Of a stretch of 39,426 bases of DNA, positions 3,234 through 6,670 are shown in pieces. Positions within the stretch are counted from its first letter, which is position 1. Each line of letters opens with the position of its first letter. The notes under the pieces are model-generated. The model was not told where the DNA came from. It saw only the letters and a program-made list of their open reading frames with translations, and ran no database searches. Both the position numbers and the translations under genes were made by a program. This DNA comes from Noviherbaspirillum denitrificans. GTDB taxonomy: Bacteria; Pseudomonadota; Gammaproteobacteria; Burkholderiales; Burkholderiaceae_D. The DNA lies in assembly GCF_002211445.1 (NCBI RefSeq), contig NZ_LSTO01000001.1, positions 1,003,231-1,042,656 of the forward strand, read 5' to 3'.

Positions 3234-4694
3234 ATGAATCTATTCGAACCCAACCTCCAGACCCTCGCCGTTGCCCGCGACATCCTGCTCGCTCCTTTCG
3301 GGCTCGATGAATCGAAGCTGACCAAGGCGCTGGGCGAGATCTTCACGCACAAGGTCGACTATGCCGACCTCTACTTCCAGTTCACCCGCAATGAAGGCTG
3401 GAGCCTGGAAGAAGGCATCGTGAAGACCGGCAGTTTCTCGATCGACCAGGGCGTCGGCGTGCGCGCCGTTTCGGGCGACAAGACCGCGTTTTCCTATTCC
3501 GACGAGATTTCCGAACGCGCGCTGCTCGAGGCGGCCGCGGCGACCCGCACCATTGCGCGCCAGGGCGCCGGCAAGGTGAAGGTGGCATCGGATATCCAGG
3601 CGGTTGGCGGCCGCTCCCTCTACCTGCCGCACGATCCGCTCGCGTCGCTGGACGCGACCGAAAAAGTGAAGCTGCTCGAAAAGGTCGAGAAGATTGCGCG
3701 CGCCAAGGATCCGCGCGTGGTGCAGGTGATGGCCGGACTCGCCGGTGAATACGATGTCGTGCTGGTGGTGCGCAGCGACGGCGTGCTGGCGGCTGACATC
3801 CGTCCGCTGGTGCGCGTATCTGTCACCGTGATTGCAGAGCAGAACGGCCGGCGCGAGGTCGGTTCGAGCGGCGGCGGCGGCCGTTACGACTACAGCTACT
3901 TCAGCGATGAACTGCTCGAGAAATACGCTGCGGAAGCCGTCGAGTCGGCCATCGTCAACCTCGACGCGCGTCCCGCTCCTGCCGGTCCGATGACCGTCGT
4001 CCTCGGACCCGGCTGGCCCGGCGTGCTGCTGCACGAAGCCGTCGGCCACGGCCTTGAAGGCGACTTCAACCGCAAGGGTTCCAGCACCTTCTCGGGCCGC
4101 ATCGGCGAGCGCGTCGCCGCCAAGGGCGTTACCGTGGTGGATGACGGCACCATTGCGGACCGCCGCGGCTCGCTCAACATCGACGACGAAGGCAACCCGA
4201 CCCAGTGCACGACGCTGATCGAGGACGGCATCCTGAAGGGCTACATCCAGGACACGATGAATGCGCGCCTGATGAAGATGCAGGTGACCGGCAACGCACG
4301 CCGCGAATCCTACGCCCACCTGCCGATGCCGCGCATGACCAATACCTACATGCTCGCCGGCGACAAGGATCCGCAGGAAATCATCGAATCCGTGAAGAAC
4401 GGCTTGTATGCCGTCAATTTCGGCGGCGGCCAGGTCGATATCACCAACGGCAAGTTCGTGTTCTCCGCGAGCGAGGCCTACATGATCGAGGACGGCAAGA
4501 TCACCTACCCGGTCAAGGGCGCGACCCTGATCGGCAATGGCCCCGACGTGCTCAACCGCGTCTCGATGATCGGCAACGACATGCAGCTTGACAGTGGCAT
4601 CGGCGTGTGCGGCAAGGAGGGGCAGAGCGTGCCGGTCGGTGTCGGCCAGCCGACGCTGCGGATCGATGGCGTGACGGTGGGCGGAACCGCCTGA
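3234..4694 (+). CDS. tldD: TldD metalloprotease subunit
   Basis: A 486-residue protein matching TldD over its whole length. The metal-binding HExxxH motif is [11 protein letters not shown], with His267, Glu268 and His272. TldD pairs with TldE/PmbA to form a peptidase that matures microcin B17 and degrades unfolded peptides and the CcdA antitoxin in enterobacteria (family knowledge). No tldE/pmbA gene lies in the window, which is usual because the partners are often unlinked. The start at 3234 is preceded by GAAAGAAG (3224-3231); the TTG at 3222 is inside that site. The gene follows the nitrilase gene after 118 bp and is followed by a long stem-loop. Confidence 0.93.
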
Positions 4695-4704
4695 CTGACC
4701 GATA

Positions 4705-4752
4705 GGCAGGGTTTTGGCGAGATTTGATACGAATTTCTGCCAAAGCCTTGCC
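4705..4752 (+). other. Stem-loop after tldD without a T-tract
   Basis: Arms 4705-4718 and 4739-4752 pair over 14 bp if two G-U pairs are allowed, with a 20-nt loop. It starts 10 bp after the tldD stop. No T-run follows, so it is more likely a 3'-end stabiliser or a factor-dependent termination site than an intrinsic terminator. Its right arm overlaps the proposed -35 box of the aroG leader promoter. Confidence 0.4.
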
Positions 4753-4776
4753 AAACCGGATGAATTACTGCACTAT
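4748..4776 (+). promoter_or_regulatory. Candidate sigma-70 promoter for the aroG leader
   Basis: TTGCCA (4748-4753, five of six to consensus) is separated by 17 bp from CACTAT (4771-4776, three of six, but with the important -11A and -7T). Transcription would start near 4783, about 27 nt before the leader-peptide ATG, which is the geometry expected of an attenuator transcript. The -10 match is weak. Confidence 0.35.
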
Positions 4777-4809
4777 TGATTGAAATTTTCAGCAAAACCC
4801 CTGAAAAAC

Positions 4810-4881
4810 ATGACTTTCGCGCGCTTTTACTTTTATTTTTTCTTTAGCTTGTCCAGCCCAACGGCGGTGGAAAAGCGGTAA
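4810..4881 (+). CDS. Phe/Tyr-rich leader peptide of the aroG attenuator
   Basis: A 23-codon frame, ATG 4810 to TAA 4879-4881, begins MTFARFYFYFFFSLSS and ends PTAVEKR. Six Phe and two Tyr fall within residues 3-12, with the run F6-Y7-F8-Y9-F10-F11-F12. This is the hallmark of a ribosome-stalling leader peptide, like PheL upstream of pheA in enterobacteria. It lies 97 bp before aroG, the first enzyme of Phe/Tyr synthesis and the expected target. There is no clear Shine-Dalgarno sequence; a TTG at 4780 is an in-frame alternative start. The underlying DNA is a T-rich tract, which by chance would also encode Phe. The case therefore rests on the combination with the downstream RNA structures. Confidence 0.65.
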   Translation: MTFARFYFYFFFSLSSPTAVEKR

Positions 4882-4924
4882 GCGCACGAATAAAAGAGCT
4901 GAACCGAATCCTGAAAAAACCGCC
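4863..4924 (+). promoter_or_regulatory. Putative antiterminator pairing in the aroG leader
   Basis: GGCGGT at 4863-4868, inside the last codons of the leader peptide, is identical to the start of the terminator's 3' arm (4931-4936). It can pair with ACCGCC at 4919-4924, the terminator's 5' arm. A ribosome stalled on the Phe/Tyr codons (up to 4845) would leave 4863-4868 free and favour this pairing. A ribosome that reaches the stop at 4879 would cover it and let the terminator form. The pairing is only 6 bp across a 50-nt loop, so this is a model. Confidence 0.5.
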
Positions 4925-4942
4925 AGAAATGGCGGTTTTTTC
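4913..4942 (+). terminator. Intrinsic terminator in the aroG leader (attenuator)
   Basis: A perfect 12-bp inverted repeat (4913-4924 and 4931-4942) with a 6-nt loop; the 3' arm runs into TTTTTT. It ends 36 bp before the aroG start and 31 bp after the leader-peptide stop. That is where an attenuator sits, not where a terminator for tldD (stop at 4694) would be expected. Confidence 0.8.
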
Positions 4943-4978
4943 GTTTATACAGACTTGAACCCTGACTGGAGAGTACAC

Positions 4979-6040
4979 ATGCAACGCACCGACGACTTGC
5001 GCATCCGGGAGATGAAGGAACTCGCGCCCCCGTCACACCTGATCCGCGAATTTTCCTGCACCGACAAGGCCTCCAACACGGTCGCCAATTCCCGTGTCGC
5101 CCTGCACCGCATCCTGCACGGCCAGGACGACCGCGTGATGGTGGTGATCGGCCCGTGCTCGATCCACGACACCAAGGCGGCGATGGAGTACGCGCGCCGC
5201 CTGGTCGAGCAGCGCGAGCGCTTCAAGGACGACCTGGAAGTCGTGATGCGGGTGTACTTCGAAAAGCCACGTACCACCGTGGGCTGGAAGGGCCTGATCA
5301 ACGATCCGTACATGGACAACAGCTTCCGCATCAACGACGGTCTGCGCACGGCCCGTGAGCTGCTCCTCAACATCAACGAACTCGGTTTGCCCGCCGGCAC
5401 CGAATTCCTCGACGTGATCAGCCCGCAGTACGTCGCCGACCTCATCAGCTGGGGCGCGATCGGTGCACGTACGACCGAGTCGCAGGTGCACCGCGAACTC
5501 GCATCCGGACTGTCCTGCCCGGTCGGATTTAAGAACGGCACCGACGGCAACATCAAGATCGCTGTCGACGCCATCAAGGCCGCTTCGCAGCCGCACCATT
5601 TCCTCTCCGTCACCAAGGGCGGCCACTCCGCCATCGTGTCGACCGGCGGCAACGAGGATTGCCATATCATCCTGCGCGGCGGCAAGGCGCCGAACTATGA
5701 CGCCGCCAGCGTCGATGCCGCATGCAAGGACATCGCAGCGAACGGCCTCGCATCGCGCCTGATGATCGACGCGTCGCATGCGAACAGCTCCAAGAAGCCG
5801 GAAAACCAGGTGCCGGTATGCGCCGACATCGCGAAGCAGATCGCCGGCGGCGACACCCGCATCGTCGGCGTGATGGTCGAGTCGCACCTCGTCGCCGGCC
5901 GCCAGGACCTGGTGCCGGGCAAGGAACTGACCTATGGCCAATCGATTACCGACGGCTGCATCGACTGGGATGCCAGCGTGAAGGTGCTGGAAGGCCTGGC
6001 GGAAGCGGTGCGCCAGCGCCGTCTCGCGAGCAACGAGTAA
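4979..6040 (+). CDS. aroG: 3-deoxy-7-phosphoheptulonate synthase, class I (AroG/F/H type)
   Basis: A 353-residue class I DAHP synthase, almost the length of E. coli AroG (350). It condenses phosphoenolpyruvate and erythrose-4-phosphate in the first step of aromatic amino acid synthesis. Visible signatures are GPCSIHD, KPRTTVGWKGLINDP, GARTTESQVHRELASG and the metal-ligand region DASHANSSKKPENQ. ATG 4979 is preceded by GGAGAG; the TTG at 4955 is rejected. The feedback-inhibiting amino acid (Phe, Tyr or Trp) cannot be assigned from sequence alone, but the upstream Phe/Tyr leader peptide suggests control by phenylalanine and/or tyrosine. The symbol aroG is used for the family, not to claim Phe sensitivity. 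Confidence 0.93.
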   Translation: MQRTDDLRIREMKELAPPSHLIREFSCTDKASNTVANSRVALHRILHGQDDRVMVVIGPCSIHDTKAAMEYARRLVEQRERFKDDLEVVMRVYFEKPRTTVGWKGLINDPYMDNSFRINDGLRTARELLLNINELGLPAGTEFLDVISPQYVADLISWGAIGARTTESQVHRELASGLSCPVGFKNGTDGNIKIAVDAIKAASQPHHFLSVTKGGHSAIVSTGGNEDCHIILRGGKAPNYDAASVDAACKDIAANGLASRLMIDASHANSSKKPENQVPVCADIAKQIAGGDTRIVGVMVESHLVAGRQDLVPGKELTYGQSITDGCIDWDASVKVLEGLAEAVRQRRLASNE

Positions 6041-6057
6041 TCCGGTTGCATTCGGGC

Positions 6058-6086
6058 AAAGGCACGGCATGCGCCGTGCCTTTTTT
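6058..6086 (+). terminator. Intrinsic terminator of aroG
   Basis: Stem GGCACGGC (6061-6068) with GCCGTGCC (6073-6080), 4-nt loop, followed by six T (6081-6086). Three A before the stem can extend pairing into the T-run. Confidence 0.92.
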
Positions 6087-6096
6087 GTATCCGCTG

Positions 6097-6124
6097 TTGT
6101 GGTGTGTGGCAACTTTGCTATAAC
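6097..6124 (+). promoter_or_regulatory. Candidate promoter for the 6158 gene
   Basis: Extended -10 TGCTATAAC (TATAAC at 6119-6124) with TTGTGG at 6097-6102 and a 16-bp spacer, just after the aroG terminator and 34 bp before the next ATG. Confidence 0.5.
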
Positions 6125-6157
6125 TAAAGCAGGTCCTGCTTTTCACGGGAGGCTATC

Positions 6158-6670
6158 ATGCGCCGCAGGCTCTACTACATGCTGCCCGATGTTCCCAGCG
6201 CACGCGCGTTGCTCGACGAGTTGCTGCTCGCTCGAATCGAGGAACGGTACATGCATTTCTGGGCGAAAGAGGGTACGCCGCTTCCGGACATGCCGGAAGC
6301 AAACTTCTTCCAGAAAACAGATCTTGTGCACGGTGTCGAGTCAGGCATCCTGACCGGCGGCGCGTTGGGTGTGATCGGCGGCGCGCTGCTGGTGCAGTTT
6401 CCGCCCGAAGGCCTGCAGCTGCCGATGGTGGCTATCCTGTTCACCGGCATTGCTGGCGTGCTGTTCGGTGCCTGGGCCTCCGGCATGGTAGCTGCGGCGA
6501 TTCCGAATTCCCGACTGGAAGCCTTCCGGCAAGGCATCGAAAGCGGCAAGGTCCTGTTGATGGTGGACGTGCCGTTCCAGCGCGTGCGGGAAATCGAGGA
6601 CATGGTCGAGAAGCGCCATCCGGAGTTCAAGTTCGGTGGCGTGGAGCCGCATATTCCGGCATTTCCGTAA
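6158..6670 (+). CDS. Small two-helix membrane protein, DUF1269-like
   Basis: A 170-residue protein of unknown function. Residues ~62-80 and ~88-112 form two Gly/Ala-rich membrane segments joined by a short Pro-containing turn. They are flanked by a soluble N-terminal part (LPDVPSARALLDELLLARIEE) and a C-terminal alpha/beta segment (VLLMVDVPFQRVREIEDMVEKRHPEFKFGG). The arrangement resembles DUF1269-type membrane proteins, in which a ferredoxin-like fold is interrupted by a glycine-rich hairpin. A strong GGGAGG (6147-6152) precedes ATG 6158. It is monocistronic between the aroG terminator and the convergent protease gene. I cannot assign a function. Confidence 0.75.
   Translation: MRRRLYYMLPDVPSARALLDELLLARIEERYMHFWAKEGTPLPDMPEANFFQKTDLVHGVESGILTGGALGVIGGALLVQFPPEGLQLPMVAILFTGIAGVLFGAWASGMVAAAIPNSRLEAFRQGIESGKVLLMVDVPFQRVREIEDMVEKRHPEFKFGGVEPHIPAFP

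Follow-up and report, generated by a model that had tools for sequence, protein, structure and literature searches.

A putative phenylalanine/tyrosine leader-peptide attenuator of aroG in Noviherbaspirillum denitrificans and its relatives in the Burkholderiales

The DAHP synthase gene aroG of Noviherbaspirillum denitrificans very probably has a functional Phe/Tyr attenuator in front of it, which represents in this genome a family of aroG attenuators that is widespread in the Burkholderiales. We hold it to be highly likely that a ribosome-mediated transcription attenuator of the trp/phe type sets the expression of AroG through the charging of tRNA-Phe and tRNA-Tyr. This reading is based on the anatomy of the region, its conservation, the constraint on its aromatic coding, the conserved sequence of one of its segments (region 2) and its mutually exclusive folds, from which we infer translation of the leader, stalling of the ribosome, readthrough and the amino acids that count. 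The window, that is, the whole stretch of 39,426 nucleotides that was analysed and to which all positions refer, contains the following features around the element.

Ending at 4694: tldD, upstream neighbour of the aroG leader region (identified by NF008006)
4748–4776, plus strand: probable sigma-70 promoter, TTGCCA (4748–4753), a 17-nt spacer and CACTAT (4771–4776); from the sequence and the relatives
4810–4881, plus strand: leader peptide open reading frame of 23 codons, MTFARFYFYFFFSLSSPTAVEKR, with ATG at 4810 and TAA at 4879–4881
4816–4845, plus strand: regulatory codon run, eight Phe/Tyr codons in ten; from the sequence and the orthologs
4847–4876, plus strand: possible 1:2 hairpin in which UCCAGCC (region 1) pairs with region 2; from folding, not generally conserved
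4863–4868, plus strand: region 2, GGCGGT, which repeats the terminator 3' arm and serves as 5' arm of the antiterminator; from the sequence and the folds
4876–4906, plus strand: inner antiterminator helix, CGGT (4876–4879) with ACCG (4903–4906); from the fold and conserved pairs
4913–4942, plus strand: intrinsic terminator, regions 3 and 4 with A6/T6 flanks; from the sequence and folding
4919–4924, plus strand: region 3, ACCGCC, common to antiterminator and terminator; from the sequence and the folds
4979–6040, plus strand: aroG, DAHP synthase (3-deoxy-7-phosphoheptulonate synthase) of 353 residues (NF006723)

An initial annotation of this DNA had described the leader frame with its eight Phe/Tyr codons in ten, the repeated GGCGGT and the spacing to the gene, and a check against the sequence found all of these, coordinates included, to be exact. 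The aromatic run FARFYFYFFF makes up residues 3–12 of the leader, 97 nt separate the leader stop from the aroG ATG (4979), and GGCGGT at 4863–4868 is identical to the terminator 3' arm at 4931–4936 and complementary to ACCGCC at 4919–4924. The gene was also correctly named as a DAHP synthase: its product scores 597.8 bits against the NCBIfam profile NF006723 (cutoff 568), and the PDB sequences closest to it are DAHP synthases, some of them Phe-regulated or Phe-sensitive. A paralog in the same genome, an AroF-like DAHP synthase that is 52% identical (G000:C1:3785238-3786254), is without such a leader.

A leader frame this rich in codons for end products of the pathway is not expected by chance. 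As a statistic we used the maximum number of Phe, Tyr or Trp residues per ten in any ATG-initiated open reading frame of 8–45 residues within 330 nt upstream of the gene; the window reaches 8, a value attained by none of 2000 dinucleotide shuffles, one of which reaches 7. The same statistic was applied to 95 AroG orthologs, mostly of Oxalobacteraceae, Paraburkholderia, Caballeronia and Ralstonia (the window's own, 14 from genomes of the same genus and 80 from other genomes), 94 of which score at least 5, while their shuffled upstream sequences (20 each) do so in 33 of 1900 cases; every one of the 94 leaders begins with ATG. Among the AroF-type paralogs, by contrast, a value above 3 is seen in none of 14 from the genus and none of 23 from the order (0/37 in total). 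The sole AroG ortholog without a leader (L042, positions 1600–2000) has a tldD-like frame ending about 40 nt before aroG, and lies outside the set of elements used below. Removal of four identical repeats leaves 90 distinct leaders, and these were joined by 18 elements from the order and one from the class to give 109. The 90 come from the scan for an aromatic frame; the other 19 were picked by eye after leader, terminator and copy had been seen.

The aromatic positions appear to be kept for what they encode. Across the 27 aligned leaders of 23 codons these positions retain Phe or Tyr, with both synonymous codons in use at several of them (residue 6 has 19 TTT and 8 TTC, residue 9 has 14 TAT and 4 TAC). 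In the full set, Phe is present in 109/109 elements, Tyr in 105/109 and Trp in 45/109, all three together in 42/109; leaders with Trp occur in Massilia and Paraburkholderia. The copy of the terminator arm behaves differently. Alanine 19 and valine 20, which carry it, are always written GCG GTG (48/48: the 27 leaders and 21 of the Massilia type), the codon that follows being GAA or GAG in one leader group, and the 13 leaders of the Paraburkholderia type carry the copy as CTG GCG GAT. In nine of the 109 elements (L039, L043, L106, L151, L158, L160, L069, L155 and L157) the copy is preserved in another reading frame. Synonymous drift upstream, together with these frame-shifted copies, indicates that the upstream part is kept as codons and the copy as RNA. 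Codon invariance as such is not special to region 2, because codons elsewhere are invariant too: TTT AGC at residues 12–13 and AAG CGG at residues 22–23 are found in all 27 leaders, the latter overlapping the inner helix.

Between the leader frame and the gene stands an intrinsic terminator. The stem at 4913–4942 folds as the initial annotation had claimed and was seen both by folding and by a separate scan, although a consensus terminator scan did not report it; the segment 4800–4950 as a whole has a folding z-score of -3.4, with one of 200 shuffles folding as well. A terminator was found in all 90 elements that had been selected on the aromatic frame alone. Over the 38 sequences of the covariance model described below, 99.7% of the cells of its core helix are paired, and the last pair of the helix co-varies, with both sides changed in 8/38.

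In 109/109 elements the stretch from the last aromatic codon to the stop repeats 5 nt or more of the terminator 3' arm, a count that is conditioned for the 19 order and class elements because these were chosen by eye with the copy visible. The copy is 5 nt long in 4 elements, 6 in 63, 7 in 32 and 8 in 10 (shuffled mean 4.2), and in 107/109 it lies 6–17 nt past the last aromatic codon. By exact length alone 67/109 copies fall within the top 5% of shuffles, and by the energy of the duplex with region 3 this rises to 100/109 in the best 5%, made up of 87/90 elements from the scan and 13/19 of those picked by eye. Folding and the conserved sequence point to an antiterminator that shares an arm with the terminator and lies within reach of a translating ribosome.

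When a stalled ribosome is placed on the last aromatic codon and the RNA is folded up to region 4, the 2:3 pairing forms in 109/109 elements; with the ribosome at the stop codon, the terminator folds in 109/109. The first of these figures is weak when taken alone, at about twice chance, since in controls with the intervening segment shuffled region 3 still pairs upstream in 1115/2180 folds, and it is position and conservation that carry the argument. In the full-length RNA with a stalled ribosome the minimum free energy structure holds 2:3 in only 8/109 elements and lacks it in 101/109, and the choice must therefore be kinetic, with the antiterminator forming first. The proposal of the initial annotation that a stalled ribosome leaves the antiterminator free and a ribosome at the stop masks it is in agreement with the folds, with the qualification that the antiterminator is favoured only until the terminator 3' arm has been made. 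The stop lies no more than 14 nt from region 2 in 85/109 elements and at least 16 nt beyond it in 24/109. RNA free of ribosomes forms 2:3 in 79/109, unlike the textbook trp case. A protecting 1:2 pairing, in which region 2 pairs upstream, is predicted for the window itself and appears in 17/109 folds; a conserved 1:2 hairpin was sought by folding in the 109 elements and is not generally found.

RNAalifold, run on 101 distinct segments without the terminator 3' arm, returned a 2:3 helix for all four groups of leaders; an alignment of the complete element gave the terminator alone. The helix is GGCGGU:ACCGCC in the AVEKR and Massilia types and CUGGCGG:CCGCCAG in the Paraburkholderia type, its extension falling on different sides between leader groups, and the pairs of the inner helix CGGU:ACCG of the AVEKR type are kept in 26/27. 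The core is nearly fixed, region 2 reading GGCGG in 107/109 elements and region 3 CCGCC in 106/109; the base flanking it can pair 2:3 in 53/109, compared with 3:4 in 103/109. Covariation of the 2:3 helix was looked for in the 109 elements and gave no support, and as the core hardly varies this speaks neither for nor against the pairing. The conservation of the short frame and the alternative pairing, which the initial annotation had proposed as a check, is thus present in the relatives (94/95 orthologs for the frame, 109/109 for the copy), and in place of the compensatory changes it had proposed to look for among 4863–4868, 4919–4924 and 4931–4936, what is found is a conserved core that hardly varies and in which no compensation is demonstrable.

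For attenuation, transcription has to begin before the leader, and a promoter-like box, a match to the consensus, would place the start there. TG at 4769–4770 lies directly 5' of the CACTAT box. The pattern TTG[CT][CA]A-N17/18-NANNNT occurs no more than 110 nt ahead of the leader ATG in 67/90 distinct relatives against 76/4450 shuffles, and at 22–36 nt before it in 63/90 against 21/4450. A stricter promoter scan of 4000–6500 reported none, neither at the leader box nor behind the terminator.

We suggest the following sequence of events. Transcription would start about 25 nt before the leader ATG, judging from the promoter-like box. With charged Phe and Tyr tRNAs plentiful, a ribosome would pass the aromatic codons, reach the stop at 4879–4881 and cover region 2 (4863–4868), so that region 3 would pair with region 4 and RNA polymerase would stop near 4941. 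With these tRNAs scarce, the ribosome would halt within 4816–4845 and leave region 2 free to pair with region 3 before region 4 is made; no terminator would then form and aroG would be transcribed.

The attenuator reading has weak points in the 1:2 hairpin, which is not generally conserved, in the antiterminator core, which shows no covariation, and in the poor Shine-Dalgarno sequence of the leader, which had been pointed out from the single sequence and is a real and general feature of the family. Of the 90 distinct leaders, 32 have no 3-nt match to the anti-Shine-Dalgarno complement and 49 have only 3 nt, such that 81/90 leaders show a match of 0–3 nt compared with 4–5 nt at aroG in 86/90. 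A leader peptide of C. glutamicum ilvBNC is reportedly formed without a ribosome binding site, as stated in the title of a paper on that operon. Weak initiation makes it conceivable that initiation itself is the control point, and that with leader and terminator conserved as they are it is translation per se (its slowing, general starvation or the initiation rate) which decides on termination rather than the charging of Phe and Tyr tRNAs. Low initiation alone would indeed give readthrough, given that the antiterminator is the predicted fold of RNA without ribosomes in 79/109 elements. We nevertheless regard this explanation as improbable, in view of aromatic residues that persist in very different leaders (Phe in 109/109, Tyr in 105/109) through synonymous drift, and of a gene whose product makes the precursor of exactly these residues.

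The terminator at 4913–4942 is present and strong, and might in principle act by itself, insulating aroG from tldD transcription or ending a constitutive small RNA, with the frame in front of it unused. The ATG start and aromatic content of the frame, conserved in 94/95 orthologs, the promoter-like box 5' of the leader and the copy of the terminator arm kept inside the leader frame all speak against such a role, which we consider very unlikely. A terminator between a promoter and a biosynthetic gene would suit any attenuator, including a riboswitch or a T-box-like element that binds a metabolite or a tRNA directly; in the window, however, every Rfam family stays below its gathering score, and the consensus structures consist only of the short 2:3 and 3:4 helices with short lineage-specific additions, which makes direct binding of this kind extremely improbable. 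The reading we prefer remains attenuation by a ribosome that responds to the charging of Phe and Tyr tRNAs.

Attenuators of this general kind are already known. The enterobacterial Phe leader of pheL-pheA and pheST has a Phe-rich peptide, a terminator and an alternative pairing, and sits before pheA or pheST. The element described here has the same three features, but its gene is aroG and Tyr codons are numerous in it, joined in some leaders by Trp codons. The corresponding Rfam model, RF01859 (Phe_leader), searched on the window with E up to 10, scores 24.9 bits against a gathering score of 55, and the element is therefore not a member; the model gives a weak match in five of 19 relatives (best 26.0 bits), and at the same site in the window the unrelated RNAI family outscores it with 27.5 bits. 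Attenuators that respond to several amino acids are represented by the leaders of thrA (Thr/Ile) and ilv (Ile/Val/Leu), which likewise mix regulatory codons of one pathway family, whereas the codons mixed here are those of the aromatic amino acids and the enzyme catalyses the step by which the common pathway is entered.

The closest precedent is the aroR-aroF attenuator of C. glutamicum, the original study of which is said to be that of Neshat et al. in 2014. According to excerpts of later accounts, a Phe-Tyr-Phe leader precedes the DAHP synthase gene there, and stalling under Phe limitation raises transcription, Tyr being without effect (PMC11802643, PMC4046766). The idea of a Phe/Tyr leader on a DAHP synthase gene, which our element shares, is thus not new. 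The two were compared by description, and differ in that C. glutamicum is an actinobacterium and in that three aromatic codons are named for its leader as opposed to eight of ten here. In gammaproteobacteria the same physiological task, control of DAHP synthases, is performed by the protein regulators TyrR and TrpR, which are absent from the other proteobacterial classes according to the portion of PMC5343134 consulted. According to passages of PMC1173090, attenuators are predicted upstream of DAHP synthase-tyrA operons in Vibrio and, at a different locus, upstream of an operon containing tyrA in the betaproteobacterium Bordetella parapertussis. The main text of a survey of premature terminators contains none of the words aroG, DAHP or phosphoheptulonate (PMC2965389). 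A search of the open literature, partly seen as excerpts and with subscription papers and attenuator databases outside its scope, returned no betaproteobacterial description of this aroG element, in keeping with the remark in the initial annotation that no Phe/Tyr attenuator of a DAHP synthase was known from this group. While the kind of attenuator is familiar, the aroG family of the Burkholderiales appears to be undescribed.

The element offers a concrete mechanism for control of the first step of aromatic biosynthesis in bacteria that are reported to be without TyrR and TrpR. It could be that a single attenuator reads the charging of all aromatic tRNAs and so provides a general cis control of entry into the shikimate pathway in the Burkholderiales, replacing TyrR and TrpR, with the untranslated state ON; we put this forward tentatively and think it rather doubtful. 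The untranslated state would be ON, opposite to the textbook trp attenuator, because ribosome-free RNA favours the antiterminator (79/109) and initiation looks weak. Which of the tRNAs a mixed leader senses could be tested directly on the natural series of leaders with varied mixtures of Phe, Tyr and Trp.

The distribution of the element was followed from the genus outwards. Leader, terminator and copy are present in all 15 genomes of the genus, counting the window's own. From 38 of the 109 elements, relatives of the window among them, we built a covariance model, R1, whose sole full-length match in the window's own genome lies at aroG (E 4.5e-27). R1 matches 137 of 145 genomes of the family at E of 1e-8 or lower, a figure that counts genomes with a match, whether or not beside aroG; six more have only weaker matches and two none, and these matches are not independent of the model since it was built partly from such genomes. 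The element is thus present in nearly all of the family genomes examined, yet is not found in Rfam above threshold.

Nine sites with secondary R1 matches were read, eight of them in relatives and the ninth in the own genome, and seven are plain terminators, among them the next match in the own genome (7.7e-4). Another of the secondary matches, L236 (G302:C55), is a further such leader, truncated where its contig ends; G302 thereby shows two such leaders, this one and G302:C50:53201-53338, which may reflect a mixed assembly or a duplicate locus. At L235 (positions 249–600; G318:C1 near 1349) there is a second copy of aroG close to the start of a contig, where the leader frame meets no stop after its aromatic codons and continues open into aroG; this could be an artefact of the assembly end.

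Outside the family, the element is scattered through the order in a patchy way. In an even sample of the order we read the DNA preceding 57 loci with 59% identity or more to AroG (without a second tandem copy in G036), and 18 of them show the copy together with an aromatic leader and a terminator of the CCGCC/GGCGG form; as two of these, L110 and L111, come from the window's own family, this amounts to 16 of 55 loci outside it, the element being absent at the other 39 of these AroG-like loci. In the class outside the order it was seen at one of 40 loci (L190), the 40 being a part of the places found. L147 has only four aromatic residues in ten but was scored as positive on account of its terminator and copy, whereas L161, L195 and L229, with five in ten and no terminator behind the leader, were counted as negative. 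Many of the order and class leaders resemble that of the window only in the aromatic run and the copy, as in MSQRFYFFFYFWSYLSHRRAK, MLRTAPYFFWFWYPTLLAAGRK and MTRRFFFFFYYFPCLLADGTG.

The leaders of L137 and L144 are followed by terminators with long loops that a simple scan had missed, and L137 has an extra cggcggtgttt stretch 3' of its terminator. A 5-kb contig of G011, a genome of the window's genus, carries a leader (L007) that is identical, flanks included, to that of Massilia horti (L079), and this contig may be foreign to the genome in which it was found.
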